Assembly (NCBI GenBank): GCA_001790955.1
Contig: MGDP01000016.1
Span: 1-32,181, forward strand
Source of the DNA: Candidatus Tectomicrobia bacterium RIFCSPLOWO2_12_FULL_69_37
Lineage (GTDB): Bacteria; UBA8248
Direction: 5' to 3'
Length of the DNA: 32,181 nt
Shown here: piece after piece, positions 764-26,796 of the stretch
Numbering within the stretch: position 1 is the stretch's first letter
Layout of the letters: each line of letters opens with the position of its first letter
Notes under the pieces: model-generated
Database searches by the model: none
What the model was told of the DNA's origin: nothing
The model's input: only the letters and a program-made list of their open reading frames with translations
Made by a program: the position numbers and the translations under genes

Positions 764-1060
764 TTCGGCGGAGAAGGGTTCGCTCCGGACTGCGCCCACC
801 GCCAACCAGTCTCCTCCGTCATTCTCTGACGCGATCCTTCCCGGAGTTCTCCTGATTCCCCGCAGTTTGCGCCCATTTCATACCCCACCGCCGGATTCTC
901 CAGGGCGGATTCGGGGGCCGATGGTGGCCCCGACCGGCGGGTTTTCTCCGGCGCGATCTTTTCAGTCGGATTTGGCGGGGCGATTACTGCGCGAAGAGAC
1001 CGATCTTCCGGCGTTGCCCGGCCCAGGACAGGGCAGGTCTTTCTCGAGGAGACGGGTGTG

Positions 1061-1166
1061 CCAGTCCCCCGATTTTCGGGGTCTGGCCGTCCAGGATGAA
1101 AGGCTTTGAAATATGTGGCAATCTTCGGGGGTTCAGTTATCGGGAATCTTCCGGGGGCCACCATGA
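1061..1166 (+). repeat. Dispersed ~105-bp repeat, copy A
   Basis: This segment aligns with 15640-15750 in the same orientation and order. Shared blocks include CCGATTTTC, CAGGATGAAA, a TTGAAA-ATAT block, GTGGCAA, and TCTTCCGG followed by CA(T/C)CATGA. Copy B has about 6 extra bases before GTGGCAA. Neither copy is coding. The pair looks like an old MITE-like or other genome-wide intergenic repeat. Confidence 0.65.
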
Positions 1167-1259
1167 GAGCCAAAAAGTCCGATGCCACACGGAAATGGCC
1201 AGATTGGAATACCGAAAATTCGGTGGACCAAGACAGGAGGGGCGGGTCGTGCCCTCTCC

Positions 1260-9482: not shown

Positions 9483-9500
9483 CAGGATGGAGAGGGCGTG

Positions 9501-10700
9501 ATGAAGTGCCAAAACAACTTCTGGCCGTGGTTTTCCGAGGAGGAATACACCCGGAGGTACGAGCGGATCCGGGCCGCCATGCGGGCGAAGAACCTCGACT
9601 GCCTTATCGTTTACGGGATCGGAGGCTACCTGGGAACGGACCCCGGCCAGCCGAACGTGGTCTATATCGCCAGCTTCGCCGGATTCGTCCAGACTTACGT
9701 CGTGTTCCCGATCGAGGGGGAGCCGACCCTTTTCACGACGTGGGGGAACCACCTCAAGAACGTGAAGCAGACCACCCACTTAAGGGACGTGCGCATCGGA
9801 GGGATGGGACAAACTCCCCTGCGGGTGGCCGACCGCCTCAAGGAGCTCGGCCTCGCGCGGAAGCGGGTCGGCATCGTCGGCGCGATGCACTGGGCGAATA
9901 TCAATCTTCCCCATGACCATCATCTTGCCATCACAGGCGCGCTCCCGGCGGCGGAATTCGAGATCGTCACCGAATGGTTCGAGCGGCTGAGGCTGGTCAA
10001 GAGCGAAGAGGAGATGGCCTACATGCGCCGGGCGGCGGCCATGACGGACGCCGCGTATGACCTCATGGTCCGTGCCACCCGTCCGGGCGTGCGGCCCTGC
10101 GACCTGTACAATGTCGTGTTGCGCGCCGCCCACGGCATGGACGGCAAGATCCCCTTCGGCCATGTGGGGCGGACGCCCATGAGCGACCCCGACATGTCCT
10201 ACGCCCACCAGCTCGCCTTGACCACCCCCATCCAGATGGGGGATGTCGTCATGACCGAGATCGCGGTCGGGTGGGGGGGGTACTTCGGCAAGATCTGGGG
10301 GACCTATTTCGTGGGAGAGCCGACGCCCGAATACGAGAAGATGTTCCGGCTGGGCCAGAAGACGCATGTGGCCCTCCATGCGGCGATCCGGCCGGGCGTG
10401 AAAGGGCGCGACCTGACGCGCCAATGTCTCGACGTCATCCAGCACGGAGGATACAAATCCAAGACGTGCATCTTCGGGTGGTCGAACTACAATTCTCCCC
10501 CCGACATCCGCTCAACCAGCGACGGGGTGACCGACGGCGATTTCACCTTCGAGAAAAATCACTGCGTGAACGTTGTCGCATGGCCGGTGAACGAGGCGGA
10601 GACGGCGGGCATTTGGATTGGGGACACCTCCGCGATCACCGAGGGTGGGATTGAGAACCTGCACAAATATCCCCTGGCCGAGATCTGCGTCGTTCGCTGA
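9501..10700 (+). CDS. M24 (creatinase/Xaa-Pro peptidase) fold protein lacking the metal ligands
   Basis: 399 residues from ATG 9501 (GGAGAGGG at 9489-9496; GTG 9498 adds one residue). The N-terminal creatinase domain (about 15-160) and C-terminal pita-bread domain (about 165-399) are both recognisable, e.g. ERLRLVKSEEEMAYMRRAAAMTD and RPGVRPCDLYN. The two metal-binding Asp positions of aminopeptidases are Glu253 (in VVMTEIAVG) and Lys264 (in GYFGKIWGTY), and the usual HGIGL His motif is missing. That resembles creatinase itself, which uses the fold without metal, rather than a prolidase. A C-N hydrolase acting on a small imported amidine or amide is plausible but unproven. It is last in the TRAP operon, convergent with the corrinoid operon. 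A second M24 protein lies at 25651. Confidence 0.85.
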   Translation: MKCQNNFWPWFSEEEYTRRYERIRAAMRAKNLDCLIVYGIGGYLGTDPGQPNVVYIASFAGFVQTYVVFPIEGEPTLFTTWGNHLKNVKQTTHLRDVRIGGMGQTPLRVADRLKELGLARKRVGIVGAMHWANINLPHDHHLAITGALPAAEFEIVTEWFERLRLVKSEEEMAYMRRAAAMTDAAYDLMVRATRPGVRPCDLYNVVLRAAHGMDGKIPFGHVGRTPMSDPDMSYAHQLALTTPIQMGDVVMTEIAVGWGGYFGKIWGTYFVGEPTPEYEKMFRLGQKTHVALHAAIRPGVKGRDLTRQCLDVIQHGGYKSKTCIFGWSNYNSPPDIRSTSDGVTDGDFTFEKNHCVNVVAWPVNEAETAGIWIGDTSAITEGGIENLHKYPLAEICVVR

Positions 10701-10752: not shown

Positions 10753-12768
10753 TCATGCCGGGAATGGGATGGCCTCGATGAACGCCTTCTCGAATTCCGG
10801 CCGGCCGGCCAATTCTACATATTGCACGCGCTCCTGAATTTCTCCGGCGCGTTTGAGCTCCGTCCGGGAGAGCAGCGCCAGGCGCGCCCCGCTCGCCGCC
10901 GCGTTGCCGACGCTGCGGATATGCTCCGGCGGCTTCTCGGGAATGAGCCCGATGCGCAGGATCTTTTCCGGGCGCAGACTCGTCCCGAAGGCCCCGGCCA
11001 GGCAGACGTCCCCGACGTCGCCCCACCCGAGGCCCGCCTCCGCGAGAAGGAGGCCGACCCCCGCGCGCACCGCCGCTTTGGCGGCCTGGAGCTTCCGGAC
11101 GTCCCACTGGTCCAGGTAGACGCCGTTTGCGGATAGGGGAGAGGCATCTCCCCAGAGCATGAACTTTCGGCTTCCGCCCGTCTCGAAAATCCGCCTCCGG
11201 ATGTCCTCCGGCGTTCCGGCGGGGAGTTCCTCTGCGCCCCGCATCCGGCCGGTGGGGTCTATCACGCCGCACTCGAGCAGGCCAGCCGCCGCGTCGATGA
11301 GGCCCGTCCCGCAAATCCCCCTCGGCGGCGCGTCCTCGATGGTGCGGAGGGTGATCTCGCCGTCACGCACGTCCACCTCGCAGACGGCTCCCGGCCCCGA
11401 GGTCATGCCGCATCGGATCTCGCCGGCTTCGAAGGCCGGCCCGGCCGGGGTCGAGGCGCACCACAAGGATTCGCCCGGGATCCCCAGGAGAATCTCCACG
11501 TTGGTCCCCAGGTCAAGCGCGAGAATCGCCCGGTCTCCCTTCGTCCTGTCGAGATTCAAGGCCAATGCGACTCCCACCGCATCCGCTCCCACGAAGCCGG
11601 CAAGGAGGGGGAAAAAATGGGCCCTTGAGGAGGGTGGAAGTCGGATGCCCTTTTCAGCGGGCCGGAAGGCCACTCCCTCCTTCCGCAAAGGCGCGTACGG
11701 CGCAAACCCGAACGATTCGACGGGCAGGCCGAGGAAGAGGTGGTGCATTACGCTGTTCCCTACGAAGATCAGGGCGATGAGGTGGCGCCGCTTCGCGCGG
11801 ACGCGCCGGAGCAGGTCAGTGAGGACCTCGTCCACGTCCCGGCGCACGGCCCGGCTGAGGCGGGCCAGGGCGTCCTTTCCGCCGCGCTCAGCGGGCGAGG
11901 CGGCGAGGACCCGCGTCATCAGGTCGGCGCCCCATTCTCGCTGCGTGTTCGGGCGCGCGCTCTCGGCCGCGAGGGCCCCCGTCGCCATGTCGATCAGATA
12001 GCCGCACAGGTTGGTCGTCCCGATGTCGATGACCGCGCCGTAGGCTTTCCGCTCGGATTTCTCGCATTCGAGGTCGACGACGCATCCGTTCGTGATCGTG
12101 ACGGTGAGGGGAACGTCCCTTCCCTCGGCTCCCTGCCTCGGGGATGGGAGACGCAGCGCGAGAGACTCGTCGATGCGGAGCCCCGGCCTGCGCCGCCGCA
12201 GGGCGCTCAGGGTGCGCTCGACGAGCACCCCTTCTTCCTTCTCCCCCTTTCCCCTGAGCCAGATTGTTGATCGCTCCGCCCACGGTTTGATGCGCACGGG
12301 GAGTTGAGTGTCAATCGATTTCCGGGCCGGGCGGTCTTCGGGGAAGGGCACGAAAGCGGTAAGCCCGCCCTTGACCCGCACCTGGCAAGCCAGACGCCAA
12401 CCCGCGTCCCGCTCCTCCTGGCTGAGCTGGCGCTGCTCGGCGGGGGTCGGCGGATCGAGCCACGAAGGAGGGGCTGGCGCCGCCTCGCCTCGCCTGCCCG
12501 GAGCGAGGAGGAGGCTCCGGCACCGCCGGCATTTCCCGAACCCTCCGCAGTCGGTCCCGATGGGGTAGCCCTCAGCCCGCGCCGCCTCGAGGAGGGTGGT
12601 ACCCGCCGGGACCCGGACGCGGAGCTCCGATTTCTCCAAGGTTTCATGATCCGGGCCGGGACCGGCCGAACCTTCCCCCGAGGGGCCAAGCCGGCGCGAG
12701 AAGCGGATCTCGCAAGCAGGGGCGCGAAGGTTTCCGCGCGGCGGGGTGTCCTTAACGGTAGCGGCCAT
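10753..12768 (-). CDS. RACE-type reductive activator of corrinoid proteins (2Fe-2S + ASKHA ATPase)
   Basis: 671 residues from ATG 12768, preceded by GATGGAGT and overlapping the UroD-like gene by 17 bases. A plant-type [2Fe-2S] ferredoxin domain has Cys74-x5-Cys80-x2-Cys83 and Cys128 (in RLACQ). A linker follows and then a large ASKHA (actin/hexokinase-like) domain with phosphate-loop motifs AVIDIGTTNLCG and ALDLGTNVEIL, plus GNSVMHHLFLGL, GPAFEAGEIRCGM and VCLAGAFGTSL. Proteins of this architecture (RamA-like without the second ferredoxin; DUF4445) use ATP and a low-potential electron to return Co(II) corrinoid to active Co(I). Being last in an operon that encodes a corrinoid protein and two methyltransferases fits this role exactly. 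It is convergent with the M24 gene; the 52-base gap has only a weak hairpin. Confidence 0.9.
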   Translation of the reverse strand: MAATVKDTPPRGNLRAPACEIRFSRRLGPSGEGSAGPGPDHETLEKSELRVRVPAGTTLLEAARAEGYPIGTDCGGFGKCRRCRSLLLAPGRRGEAAPAPPSWLDPPTPAEQRQLSQEERDAGWRLACQVRVKGGLTAFVPFPEDRPARKSIDTQLPVRIKPWAERSTIWLRGKGEKEEGVLVERTLSALRRRRPGLRIDESLALRLPSPRQGAEGRDVPLTVTITNGCVVDLECEKSERKAYGAVIDIGTTNLCGYLIDMATGALAAESARPNTQREWGADLMTRVLAASPAERGGKDALARLSRAVRRDVDEVLTDLLRRVRAKRRHLIALIFVGNSVMHHLFLGLPVESFGFAPYAPLRKEGVAFRPAEKGIRLPPSSRAHFFPLLAGFVGADAVGVALALNLDRTKGDRAILALDLGTNVEILLGIPGESLWCASTPAGPAFEAGEIRCGMTSGPGAVCEVDVRDGEITLRTIEDAPPRGICGTGLIDAAAGLLECGVIDPTGRMRGAEELPAGTPEDIRRRIFETGGSRKFMLWGDASPLSANGVYLDQWDVRKLQAAKAAVRAGVGLLLAEAGLGWGDVGDVCLAGAFGTSLRPEKILRIGLIPEKPPEHIRSVGNAAASGARLALLSRTELKRAGEIQERVQYVELAGRPEFEKAFIEAIPFPA

Positions 12769-13915
12769 ACTCCATCGCCGCCTCGAACATGGCGCAGACG
12801 TTGCCGGGCGGCACCTCGTCCTGGACGTTGTGGACAAAGTTCAGGACGTAGCCGCCGCCGGGAGCGAGGTCATCGATTCGGCGCCGGACCTCCTCGAATA
12901 TCTCCCCGCGCGTTCCGAAGGGGATGACTCGGCCCGTGTCGATCCCGCCCCAAAAGAAAAGGTCCTTTCCGAACTCGCGCTTGAGGCGTGCCGTGTCGCC
13001 CATATTTTTTGCCGAAACCTGAACGGGGTTGAGTCCCTCGATGCCGATTTCGATCAGGTGGGGGAGAAAGATGTCGATGCAGCCGTCGCAGTGGTAGAGG
13101 AGCTTGGCATCCGGCGCTGCCTTGTGCATGGCCTCGAAGAGAAGCTTCTGCCGGGGTTTCACGAATTCTTCATACATCCCGGGTGAGATCATCGGCCTGT
13201 CCTGCGTGCCGAGGTCGTCCCCCGCGAGCATGACGTCCAAATAGCCCCGGGTTTCGTTCAGCGCGCGGACGGTCATCTCCAGGCGGACCTCCAGGATCCG
13301 ATCGAGCAGGGCGTGGATGAATCTCTTGTTGGTGACGAGGTCCGAGTAAAAATCGCCGAAGCCCCGCATCCACTCCGCCTCCGCCCAGAAGGAGGCGGCC
13401 GAGGTGAGGACGACCGCGTAGTCTGTCTTTTCGCGGAATTCCCGGGCCTTGTCGCGCAACCCCCGGTAGCGCGCCGGATCCCCCGGGTCGGGCCAGCGGA
13501 AATCCCTGAGCGCCTCGATCGTTCCGCGGCCGTCGCCCTCGAAGCAACCCTTCAGGAGGAAGTAGGAGTTCGACTCCTCGGTCCGCTGCCACTGGACGCC
13601 CCACTCGTCCTCGTAGGTGAGCGGGTCAACCCAGATGTCGTTCCAGTTCTCGGGCGGCCCGAGGAGGAGCGGGCGGGTGTCGACGTGGAACATCTCCAAG
13701 ATGCGCTCGTCCACGTAGGCGACCTGGCCCTGCTTGGCGAGGATGCGGGTCTCGGCCTCGACGCCCAGGTGGCGCTTCAGCTTCTCGTAGGCGAGGGCCG
13801 CGATGCTGGTGGTCGAGGTCGAGCCGAAGTCAATGGGCACGCGATCAGGCGCCTTGTGGTCCATGGCCGCCCGCAGGCGTTCGCGCGGGGTCATGCCCGC
13901 TCTGCCGGATGACAC
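12752..13915 (-). CDS. Uroporphyrinogen decarboxylase-like corrinoid methyltransferase
   Basis: 387 residues from GTG 13915, chosen because GGAAGGAGAG lies directly upstream; ATG 13894 is an alternative. The start MTPRERLRAAMDHKAPDRVPIDFG is typical of the URO-D superfamily branch that moves methyl groups (MtaA, CmuA and relatives) rather than making haem. A barrel with YHCDGCIDIF near 274-283 offers His275, Cys276 and Cys279 as zinc/thiol-site candidates, and AGDDLGTQ near 231-238 is a conserved loop. Placed between the corrinoid protein gene and the activator gene, it probably transfers methyl between an unknown donor or acceptor and the corrinoid protein. No other haem biosynthesis gene is nearby, arguing against HemE. 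The methyl donor is unknown. Confidence 0.85.
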   Translation of the reverse strand: MSSGRAGMTPRERLRAAMDHKAPDRVPIDFGSTSTTSIAALAYEKLKRHLGVEAETRILAKQGQVAYVDERILEMFHVDTRPLLLGPPENWNDIWVDPLTYEDEWGVQWQRTEESNSYFLLKGCFEGDGRGTIEALRDFRWPDPGDPARYRGLRDKAREFREKTDYAVVLTSAASFWAEAEWMRGFGDFYSDLVTNKRFIHALLDRILEVRLEMTVRALNETRGYLDVMLAGDDLGTQDRPMISPGMYEEFVKPRQKLLFEAMHKAAPDAKLLYHCDGCIDIFLPHLIEIGIEGLNPVQVSAKNMGDTARLKREFGKDLFFWGGIDTGRVIPFGTRGEIFEEVRRRIDDLAPGGGYVLNFVHNVQDEVPPGNVCAMFEAAMEYGRYR

Positions 13916-13946
13916 CGGATCTCTCCTTCCGCTGGCGGCGCGGAGA

Positions 13947-14594
13947 TCAGGGCGTGCGAAGGGCCGCGACGAGCCCCTTGAAGCACTCGACGGCGACCGT
14001 GGCGTCCTTGGCGTATCCGTCGGCACCGATCTTGTTTGCATACGCGAGGTCGAGGGGGGCGCCGCCGACCGCGATCCGGACGCCGGCGCCGGCGCGGGAC
14101 TTGCGGATCTCCTCGATGATTCCACCCATGCGGCTCATTGTCGTGGTGAGGAGGGCGGACATGCCCAGCAGGCGGGCGCCGGACTCCTCGATCGCCTGGA
14201 TGAAGCGCTCGGCGCCCGCGTTCACCCCGAGGTCGATCACCTCGAAGCCCGCCCCACGGAGCATCATGCACACGAGGTTTTTCCCGATGTCGTGCATGTC
14301 CCCCTTTACCGTGCCCATCACGACCTTCCCGAGCGACTCCACGCCGCTCGCCTCGAGTAGGGGGCGCAGGATTTCCATGGCGGCGTTCATGGCCTTGGCC
14401 GCCGCCATCAGCTCGGGGATGAACGCCTCGCCGCGCGCGAACCGCTCGCCCAGGACGTCCATGCCGGGAATGAGACCCTCGTTCAGGATGCCGACGGCTT
14501 CGCGCCCCGCATCGAGCTCCTCCCGGGTCAGCCGGACAACGGATTCCCGATCCCCCCGGATGATGCCCTGGGCCAGCTCCTGGTCGCGCGGCAT
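13947..14594 (-). CDS. Corrinoid (B12-binding) methyl-carrier protein
   Basis: 215 residues from ATG 14594, which overlaps the upstream stop as TGATG and has GGAGGGG upstream. The N-terminal helical cap domain (about 1-85) is followed by a B12-binding Rossmann domain. The cobalt-ligating motif D-x-H-x-x-G is Asp99-Met-His101-Asp-Ile-Gly104, followed by the SALLTTTM and VGGAPL segments that wrap the corrinoid nucleotide tail. Size and order match the MtaC/MtbC/MttC-type carrier proteins and the cap-plus-B12 module of MetH. It should carry the methyl group between the two flanking methyltransferases and be reactivated by the RACE protein of the same operon. Longer frames upstream overlap the homocysteine methyltransferase gene and are rejected. 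Confidence 0.93.
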   Translation of the reverse strand: MPRDQELAQGIIRGDRESVVRLTREELDAGREAVGILNEGLIPGMDVLGERFARGEAFIPELMAAAKAMNAAMEILRPLLEASGVESLGKVVMGTVKGDMHDIGKNLVCMMLRGAGFEVIDLGVNAGAERFIQAIEESGARLLGMSALLTTTMSRMGGIIEEIRKSRAGAGVRIAVGGAPLDLAYANKIGADGYAKDATVAVECFKGLVAALRTP

Positions 14595-15520
14595 CAGTTT
14601 ATCCCCTCCGACGGAGCCAGGCGGGTCGGCCGGCGGTCCCATGCGCGGCGCAGCGCCTCCCCCGCCGCCCGGACGTGCTCCGGCGTGGTCCCGCAGCAGC
14701 CGCCGATGTAGCGGACGCCCGTCTCGAAGCATCGCAGGGCATGCTCGGCCATCCTTTCAGGCGTCACTCCGTAATTGATCTGCCCGTCGGCGAGCCGTGG
14801 CCTGCCCGCGTTCGGCTGCACGATCAGGGGAATCCGGCTGCTATCCGCCATCTCCTGCATGATGGCCTCAATCTCGAAAGGCCCGTTCCCGCAGTTGGCG
14901 CCGAAGGCGTCCACGCCGAGGCGCTCCGCAGTCTTCCGCGCCTCCTCAGGCGCCGTGCCCATCATCGTGCGCCCGTGCATATCGAACGTCATGGTGCAAA
15001 GCACGGGAAGATCGCAGTTCCGGTGGCATGCCTCCACTGCGGCGCGCACCTCCTCCAGGTCGCTCATGGTCTCGATCAGGAGGAAGTCCACTCCGCCCTC
15101 GGCCAGAGCGCGGCACTGCTCGGCAAACGCTTCCCGGGCCTGCTCGAATGGCAGATCGCCGATCGGCTCCAGCAGGGCGCCCGTGGGTCCCATGCCGCCC
15201 GCGACCAGGATCTCCCGGCCGGCGCCCAAAGCGGCTTCGCGGGCGATCCCGGCCGCGGCGCGGTTGACCTCGGGCACACCCTCTTCCAGATCGTGCAGCG
15301 AGAGGCGGAAGCGATTCGCCCCGAACGTGTTCGTCGTGAGGACGTCGGCCCACGCGTCGGCGTAGGCCTGGTGCACTTCCCGCACGGCGCGGGGGCGAAT
15401 GAGGTTGAGGCCCTCGGGGGCCTCGCCCGGCTCCAGGCCCGACGCCTGGAGCATGGTCCCCATGGCCCCGTCGCCGACCAGCAAGCCCCCTTTCGTCAGG
15501 AACCGTTGCAGAAGGCCCAC
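14594..15520 (-). CDS. Homocysteine S-methyltransferase (MetH N-module/BHMT-like)
   Basis: 308 residues from GTG 15520, with GAGGAA six bases upstream. The barrel begins LLVGDGAMGTML, the hallmark of the Hcy-binding domain of MetH and BHMT, and contains LTTNTFGANR. The zinc/homocysteine ligands are Cys210 (GANCGNGP) and Cys275-Cys276 (GGCCGTTPEH), all present. It lacks the pterin, B12 and activation domains of MetH. The next gene, overlapping by one base, encodes the missing B12 module. It therefore probably takes methyl from that corrinoid protein to make methionine, or works in reverse or on a related thiol. First gene of the corrinoid operon, driven by the promoter near 15579. Confidence 0.9.
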   Translation of the reverse strand: MGLLQRFLTKGGLLVGDGAMGTMLQASGLEPGEAPEGLNLIRPRAVREVHQAYADAWADVLTTNTFGANRFRLSLHDLEEGVPEVNRAAAGIAREAALGAGREILVAGGMGPTGALLEPIGDLPFEQAREAFAEQCRALAEGGVDFLLIETMSDLEEVRAAVEACHRNCDLPVLCTMTFDMHGRTMMGTAPEEARKTAERLGVDAFGANCGNGPFEIEAIMQEMADSSRIPLIVQPNAGRPRLADGQINYGVTPERMAEHALRCFETGVRYIGGCCGTTPEHVRAAGEALRRAWDRRPTRLAPSEGIN

Positions 15521-15639: not shown

Positions 15640-15750
15640 ATCCGCCGATTTTCTAGGTCCGGCAGCTCAGGATGAAAAGCCTTGAAAATATTGGGTATGT
15701 GGCAACTTCCGAGGCCCGGCAACCCGGACTCTTCCGGAGGTCATCATGAC
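15640..15750 (+). repeat. Dispersed ~105-bp repeat, copy B
   Basis: Same orientation as copy A (1061-1166), with matching blocks along its whole length (CCGATTTTC, CAGGATGAAA, GTGGCAA, CTCTTCCGG and CATCATGA) and a short insertion before GTGGCAA. It lies just upstream of the corrinoid operon promoter. The two copies bracket about 14.5 kb of genes but show no transposase or target duplication that can be seen. Confidence 0.65.
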
Positions 15751-25650: not shown

Positions 25651-26796
25651 GTGGCGAGTCTCTCAACCAAGGAGCGGGATCGGCGCCAGGGACAATTGCG
25701 CGCCGACATGAAGCGCGCGGGACTGGACGTCCTCATCGTTTACGGGAATAGCGGCCGGCTGGGGCCCCGGACGGGGAACCTCGCGTATGTGAGCAATTTC
25801 CGCCCGTTCTCCGGCCAGCAGGCGATGGTCTTCCCCCTCGAGGGAGAGCCCGTCCTGCTCGTGGGGGTGGACAACCAGCGCATCGAGGCGCTCCGCACGG
25901 GGTGGGCCGCCGATGTGCGTTGCAGCCCCCTGGAGTCGGTTCCCGAACAGGTGTGCGGCTACATGAAGAAGGCCATCGGGGCCGGCAAGCGCATCGGGAT
26001 TTCGTCTTTGTCGATCATGCCCGTGGCCTTTTACAAGCTGCTGCAAGAGCAGGTGCCGGCCAAGGAATGGGTTGAGGCGGGCGACCTCATCCTGGAAAGG
26101 CGCTACGTCCAGAGCGAAGAAGAAATCGCGCTCTCCCGCCGCGCCGCGGGGGTCGCGGACAAGATGTGGGAGCACCTTTGCAGGAACGCTCGGGAAGGCA
26201 TGTCGGAACTCGACATCCGCATGGAATTGGACCGGGTCATGATCCCATCCGGGGCCTGGGACAATTTCAATATGGTGGGCTTGGGAAACATGGCCGACGG
26301 TGGAGAGGCGCCGTGGGGATACATCATTCCTCCGACGGAAAGGCGGGTGAAGCGCGGAGACGCGGTCGTGCTGGAGATCTCTCCGCGCGTGGATGGGTAC
26401 TGGAACCAGATCGTGCGCATTTTCACGCTCGGGCCGGCGGCGAAATGGCTTGTCGACGCCTATGACGTGGCGCGGCGCGCCCGCGATGCGGCGCTCGCGG
26501 AAATGAAGCCCGGCGGCTCCATGGTGGGGATGGTCACCGCCATGCAGAAGGTCATCGAGAAAGGCGGTTACTCCTTATGGCCATATGGGCTGGTTCACAT
26601 CACGGGGCTGGACCTTACCGATTATATGATCACGCCTAAGTCGACCGGCGCCCTAAAGGCGGGGATGGTCCTTACGCTTCACCCGATGTTCTCCTTGGGG
26701 AAGGACCGGCAGTTGTTCATGGGCGAGTCCTACCTCGTGACGGGCGGCGGTTACGAACCGCTGAACCGGTGTTCGGACCAGCTGGTTTCCCTTTGA
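25651..26796 (+). CDS. M24 (Xaa-Pro peptidase/creatinase) fold protein with altered metal site
   Basis: 381 residues from GTG 25651 with GGGAGGAAG upstream. N-terminal creatinase domain about 10-145 (RADMKRAGLDVLIVYG) and pita-bread domain about 150-381. Of the five metal ligands of M24 peptidases, the first Asp is Glu242 (VVLEISPRVDGYWNQI), the second is in the Asn252/Gln253 pair, the His may be His316 (LVHITGLDL), the first Glu is His344 (LTLHPMF) and the last Glu may be Glu359 (MGESYLV). A normal dinuclear site therefore seems impossible, and a creatinase-like or mononuclear chemistry is more likely. It is the first intact gene of the operon with an ABC receptor and two permeases, suggesting it acts on the imported substrate. 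Confidence 0.85.
   Translation: MASLSTKERDRRQGQLRADMKRAGLDVLIVYGNSGRLGPRTGNLAYVSNFRPFSGQQAMVFPLEGEPVLLVGVDNQRIEALRTGWAADVRCSPLESVPEQVCGYMKKAIGAGKRIGISSLSIMPVAFYKLLQEQVPAKEWVEAGDLILERRYVQSEEEIALSRRAAGVADKMWEHLCRNAREGMSELDIRMELDRVMIPSGAWDNFNMVGLGNMADGGEAPWGYIIPPTERRVKRGDAVVLEISPRVDGYWNQIVRIFTLGPAAKWLVDAYDVARRARDAALAEMKPGGSMVGMVTAMQKVIEKGGYSLWPYGLVHITGLDLTDYMITPKSTGALKAGMVLTLHPMFSLGKDRQLFMGESYLVTGGGYEPLNRCSDQLVSL

Follow-up and report, generated by a model that had tools for sequence, protein, structure and literature searches.

The four genes on the minus strand of the window (the whole stretch of DNA analysed here, 32,181 nucleotides long, contig C16 of its genome) form a real, conserved corrinoid methyltransferase operon, which most likely encodes a folate-independent, methionine-forming demethylase. 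The operon would be a self-contained module, in which a methyl group moves from the substrate of a UroD-like protein to a corrinoid protein and then to homocysteine to give methionine. The probability of this reading, judged from sequence comparisons, is about 0.68.

The genome is a 3.3 Mb MAG (91.6% complete, 228 contigs), and its nearest named relatives are Nitrospinota and Candidatus Tectomicrobia MAGs. The operon runs from position 15520 to position 10753 in the order Hcy, corrinoid, UroD and RACE (Table 1). The positions and the close packing given in the initial annotation were confirmed for all four genes: the Hcy and B12 genes overlap by 1 base, the B12 and UroD genes are separated by 52 bases, and the UroD and RACE genes overlap by 17 bases. 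The GC content at the third codon position is 0.82-0.90 in all four, as in coding sequence. A search for cobalamin or SAM riboswitches upstream of the operon and in its relatives found none, which counts against the main reading. A diverged intergenic repeat of ~110 bases sits just upstream of the Hcy gene (15640-15750, minus strand) and again at about 1060-1170 (minus strand). The core common to both copies is TTTCAA-GC-TTTCATCCTG...GAAAATCGG, and a whole-genome DNA search with the repeat matched the query alone.

Table 1. Genes of the operon, with positions in the window.
Product	Position	Strand	Features
Homocysteine S-methyltransferase domain protein (MtgE/Bmt clade)	14594..15520	-	308 aa from GTG; Zn Cys210, Cys275, Cys276; PF02574
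Corrinoid (B12) methyl carrier	13947..14594	-	215 aa; DMHDIG at residue 99; PF02607 + PF02310
UroD-superfamily methyltransferase, putative methyl-donor (MT-I) enzyme	12752..13894	-	380 aa; PF01208; predicted ligands His268, Asp270, His355
RACE/RamA-like ATP-dependent corrinoid reductive activator	10753..12768	-	671 aa; 2Fe-2S Cys74/80/83; PF14574, PF17651, PF00111

The Hcy protein matches its Pfam domain with an E-value of 4e-76. The previously reported numbering of its cysteine triad is exact when the GTG at position 15520 is taken as the start, and becomes 211, 276 and 277 when counted from one codon upstream. The B12 motif DxHxxG was confirmed in the corrinoid protein, and the hallmark of MetH, an Hcy domain with three zinc cysteines and a B12 domain with DxHxxG, is present in the operon. 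The best NCBIfam match of the Hcy protein is PRK07534 (betaine--homocysteine methyltransferase) with 310 bits, below the cut-off of 338, and human BHMT matches it distantly (E 5e-25). A tree built from 84 Hcy domains places the operon proteins with the bmt products of S. meliloti and Paracoccus (SH-aLRT 99). Grouping with enzymes that use betaine or S-methylmethionine had been named as an outcome that would speak against the proposal. The operon protein does group with S. meliloti 'Bmt', but the latter is reported to lack betaine-binding residues and has been reassigned as MtgE, a methionine synthase module coupled to a corrinoid protein, so the objection fails; its homologue in Ruegeria, MtgE, serves as the homocysteine module in a split methionine synthase (Mausz et al., PMC12478193). 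One of the related genomes (G007) has a second free Hcy gene (L084 1824-2729), the product of which is 48% identical to the operon protein; this gene adjoins a trehalose-phosphatase gene, and there is no corrinoid or UroD gene at that locus.

The corrinoid protein (PF02310, 8e-28; PF02607, 3e-22) is MtgC/MtbC-like in NCBIfam with scores below the cut-offs, and its closest solved structure is 1y80, a predicted cobalamin-binding protein. The RACE protein (PF14574, 3e-66; PF17651, 1e-37; PF00111, 3e-9) matches the solved RACo structure 3zyy with an E-value of 9e-58. It carries a C-x5-C-x2-C 2Fe-2S motif at residues 74-83 together with the middle and C-terminal domains of RACo, which bears out its initial description as a 2Fe-2S/ASKHA activator, and it is the sole RACE protein (PF14574) of its genome.

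The UroD protein (E 2e-19 to its Pfam family) belongs to its own clade, with a support of 100/100, in the UroD tree, outside the HemE clade; the true HemE of the genome is encoded on another contig (G000:C104). CmuA was not recovered for this tree from the plasmid collection, and CmuC alone was included, on a very long branch. The best NCBIfam model, mtaA_cmuA, gives 42 bits with a cut-off of 235. A PDB search with the single sequence found no match, and the family profile matches MtaA, HemE proteins and, marginally, CdmB. Three concordant alignments (a profile match to MtaA (4ay7), MAFFT, and a profile-profile comparison with SCMT-like proteins) align the zinc ligands His-x-Cys...Cys of MtaA with His268-Cys-Asp270...His355 of the operon protein, both thiolates being substituted. 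Thus, the HCDGC motif of the initial annotation is present at residues 268-272, but it is not an MtaA-like cysteine metal site, as only His268 is conserved relative to MtaA. Asp270 aligned to a zinc cysteine is a carboxylate substitution of the O-demethylase type, and the mlp-type His-Cys-Cys site is absent. Most relatives of the protein have His-Ser-Cys...His at the metal site, so Asp270 characterises the operon clade, along with a few others. A His-Cys-Cys site marks S/Se-methyltransferases and a carboxylate substitution marks O-methyltransferases (PMC10418091); in CdmB and in the Moorella O-demethylase the zinc can be missing altogether. As the site is His-Asp-His and not the thiol-type His-Cys-Cys, we infer with moderate confidence that the methyl group of the putative donor would be bound to oxygen.

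The direction of transfer proposed here might also be reversed, with the Hcy-type protein demethylating an S-methyl compound (S-methylmethionine, DMSP or methionine) and the UroD protein methylating an acceptor. Corrinoid methyl transfers are in principle reversible, the UroD-family enzymes MtaA and MtbA are acceptor-side enzymes, and the best NCBIfam model of the Hcy protein bears the name of a betaine enzyme. Such a reversal is nevertheless very improbable, since the H-D-H site is unlike a thiol-acceptor site and methyl transfer from a thioether to oxygen is uphill. In addition, proteins of the MtgE/Bmt clade lack betaine-binding residues and are homocysteine acceptor modules (PMC12478193).

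Another thiol or selenol might replace homocysteine as the acceptor of the same four proteins, for example in the recycling of methanethiol or selenide, as proposed for mlp clusters. The Hcy fold is able to act on other thiols as well. The mlp clusters, which combine UroD methyltransferases with corrinoid and RACE proteins without a folate methyltransferase, are tied to methyl-S/Se metabolism (PMC10418091). An acceptor other than homocysteine is unlikely, as the acceptor-type protein is an MtgE/Bmt homologue with its zinc cysteine triad intact and the His-Cys-Cys site that S/Se-methyltransferases have is missing from the UroD protein.

The phylum-wide search reached 18 genomes, all from one family, and the operon was found in six of them: the genome of the window (G000), G001, G002, where it is cut by the contig end, G007, G010 and G012. 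The same order of genes is found again in related genomes, with proteins 54-80% identical, and is therefore not due to chance. Wherever the order can be read in a carrier, the UroD gene is flanked by the corrinoid and RACE genes. G007, G010 and G012 have two tandem UroD genes, which the UroD tree places as a duplication inside the operon clade; the window has one.

A genome-wide search of five carriers for a stand-alone pterin methyltransferase (PF00809 beyond folP and MetH) found none. Each of the five genomes has two PF00809 genes: MetH, which in G012 is a 1027-aa open frame located at the end of a contig, and a separate, higher-scoring gene, which is taken to be folP and is partial in G007. 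PF02607 is restricted to MetH and the operon, and PF01208 to HemE and the operon, allowing for the G010 operon being split over contigs. PF14574 has a single occurrence per carrier, within the operon; in G010 and G012 this copy is on the contig onto which the operon extends. PF06253 (MttB/MtgB) and DUF1638 are absent from all five, which are incomplete, fragmented MAGs that agree with each other. A glycine betaine donor acting via MttB was rejected because of the absence of PF06253. As the carriers have no folate-linked methyltransferase partner, the corrinoid protein can exchange methyl groups with its own operon only, and this absence of other genomic partners is the strongest evidence for transfer between the UroD, corrinoid and Hcy proteins. 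The four genes are also present or absent together, as four sister genomes without RACE lack both the UroD and the free Hcy protein. Because the five carriers have no other corrinoid partner and the sister genomes lack the components jointly, the flow from the UroD protein via the corrinoid to homocysteine is the best reading. The initial suggestion that a UroD-like enzyme takes the place of the pterin domain and that methyl reaches homocysteine without methyl-THF is thus retained. A pterin-binding methyltransferase that consistently accompanied the operon in relatives would have contradicted it; there is none in the window operon, as noted at the outset, or beside any copy in a relative.

Could the UroD protein have an unrelated job in an ordinary split methionine synthase, which uses the pterin domain of MetH or a methyl-THF enzyme missing from the assembly? 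There is precedent for a split MetH activated by a RamA-like protein (PMC5764234), and the MAG is incomplete. An extra pterin enzyme was found in 0 of 5 carriers, the UroD gene keeps its place between the corrinoid and RACE genes and overlaps the latter in the window, and RACE-negative sister genomes are without UroD too, all of which makes an unrelated job improbable.

The initial annotation described the operon as a dismantled methionine synthase and proposed checking the genome for MetH. As history, this description does not hold. Elsewhere, the genome has a gene for an intact MetH of ~1240 aa, complete with its Hcy, pterin, B12 and activation domains, so nothing has been dismantled there, and the operon Hcy proteins do not group with this MetH in the Hcy-domain tree. 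The possibility that the operon replaces a lost MetH was rejected for the same reason. The operon would run beside the intact MetH, not instead of it, and the presence of MetH is a point against the main reading, casting doubt on the need for a second methionine synthase.

Relatives of the UroD protein in other genomes (33-47% identity) mostly have no corrinoid gene nearby, another point against the main reading. At the annotatable loci of these closer relatives a free Hcy gene was found in none and a corrinoid gene in two. The combination in the operon is therefore specific and not general to the UroD subfamily, the wider part of which may do something else. UroD-family genes were also seen near aldehyde ferredoxin oxidoreductase genes at two loci (L082 627-5666 and L065 3348-7703); at the former, a corrinoid gene is adjacent to the UroD gene, and Hcy and RACE genes are absent.

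Approached from the side of the free Hcy genes, a similar combination is found in unrelated genomes. A UroD-family gene lies within about 6.5 kb of 12 of 40 free Hcy genes in other genomes, whereas random placement of the UroD genes counted in each genome predicts 0.98 (the nearby genes were found with the profile of the operon UroD family, and the background was counted with PF01208). With one locus per family, eight such loci remain, with 0.87 expected. The UroD proteins at these loci fall in several subfamilies. In the unrelated genome G160, the genes are arranged as RACE, SCMT-like UroD, DUF1638, Hcy, corrinoid and a second UroD (L131 2355-9536). G297 has a similar cluster, and DUF1638, a B12-reactivation partner of split MetH in Phaeobacter (PMC5764234), is present in both. 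At two other loci (L125 and L130), Hcy, an MtaA-like UroD, corrinoid and RACE genes occur together. At a further locus (L129 3292-7151), UroD-family, inosine-uridine nucleoside hydrolase and free Hcy genes stand in a row. The clusters suggest that the same kind of machine may have been assembled repeatedly from different UroD enzymes. Tentatively, they might belong to a widespread, unrecognised type of modular methionine synthase that works without folate. A core of corrinoid, free Hcy and RACE proteins would have been combined repeatedly with different UroD-family demethylases as substrate adaptors, making methionine directly from O-methylated environmental compounds (such as methyl sugars, methyl inositols or methoxy compounds).

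By combining these observations, it is possible to propose the following sequence of events. The UroD-like protein (MT-I) would take the methyl group from the putative donor and load it onto the corrinoid protein in its Co(I) state. From there, the methyl group would be passed to homocysteine by the MtgE-type Hcy protein (MT-II), forming methionine. Corrinoid that has become oxidized to Co(II) would be rescued by the RACE protein, using ATP and a reduced ferredoxin-type donor.

The neighbourhood of the operon varies between carriers, and there is consequently no conserved donor gene. Directly upstream of the operon in G001, on the same strand, are genes for all parts of a CUT2-type monosaccharide ABC transporter (ATPase, two permeases and binding protein). 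CUT2-type transporters stand beside the UroD gene at 3 of 25 loci of UroD relatives, compared with 0 of 40 control loci, and the best NCBIfam model of one CUT2-type binding protein is a rhizopine (O-methyl inosamine) binding protein, at a score far below the cut-off. A sugar- or cyclitol-like O-methyl donor might perhaps fit this transporter context, which is not common to the other carriers. Also upstream of the G001 operon is a nitrite/nitrate oxidoreductase-like cluster (L165 12252-17000) with genes for NnrS, a cytochrome c/ethylbenzene dehydrogenase-like subunit, the delta subunit of a nitrate reductase and a ferredoxin subunit. The neighbours in the window (TAXI-TRAP transporter, acyl-CoA dehydrogenase, M24 peptidase and YceI) were considered as clues to the donor and set aside, since most of them lie on the other strand and relatives do not retain any of them next to the operon. 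The window has two creatinase/prolidase-like M24 peptidase genes (9498-10700 and 25651-26796), both of which belong to gene runs that include transporters (TAXI-TRAP; dipeptide-type ABC).

If the proposed module is correct, these uncultured carriers would be able to charge methionine and SAM straight from a foreign methylated compound, with folate bypassed. Annotations of a 'uroporphyrinogen decarboxylase family protein' beside a free Hcy gene could then serve as a search key for demethylation reactions. As the system consists of only four proteins, donor and acceptor could be screened in vitro.

Compared with MetH, the operon has the same Hcy domain, B12 cap and binding domain with DxHxxG, but these are carried on separate chains, and neither a pterin domain nor a SAM-dependent activation domain is present. 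The core methionine synthases MesA-D (PMC7857596) resemble the putative module in that methionine is made from methyl-corrinoid without methyl-THF, as proposed for MesA-C. They have the MetE fold and are fed by MtrA or CoFeSP, whereas the operon has a MetH-type Hcy protein (PF02574) with its own dedicated corrinoid protein.

The three-component O-demethylases MtvABC, Odm, Vdm and Mto, together with CdmBCA (PMC13222342, PMC8630106), share with the operon a UroD-superfamily MT-I, a related corrinoid protein and a RACE-type activator. In these systems the methyl group is passed on to a tetrahydrofolate/pterin methyltransferase, in place of which the operon has the Hcy protein, and the sequence similarity of the operon UroD protein to the solved CdmB is marginal. 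The Type 1 mlp clusters (PMC10418091) also combine UroD-family methyltransferase(s), corrinoid and RACE, and a folate methyltransferase is absent nearby. Mlps are close to MtaA/MtbA and have the His-Cys-Cys zinc site, and an Hcy protein is not a defining component; the operon has a distant UroD protein with His-Asp-His and does include an Hcy protein. It does not contain at least two Mlps over 25% identical to coenzyme M methyltransferase, by which Type 1 clusters are recognised.

The closest parallels are the split MetH and MtgBCDE systems of Phaeobacter inhibens and Ruegeria pomeroyi, in which, as in the operon, an MtgE-clade Hcy protein and a corrinoid protein are separate and accompanied by a RamA-like DUF4445 activator; a further likeness is that one corrinoid hub serves both demethylation and methionine synthesis (PMC5764234, PMC12478193). 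Split MetH with RamA-like reactivation was described in Phaeobacter in 2018 (Price et al., PMC5764234). Thus, of the folate-free split with ATP/ferredoxin reactivation put forward initially, the design of separate Hcy and corrinoid proteins with a RACE activator was already known. The operon differs from MtgBCDE in lacking MtgD (pterin), MtgB (PF06253) and DUF1638, in having a UroD-family protein in the donor place, in the gathering of its four genes into a single operon and in its coexistence with an intact MetH. No description of clusters of Hcy, corrinoid, UroD and RACE genes was found in the open-licence papers searched, and a UroD protein that stands in for the pterin and MttB modules appears to be new.
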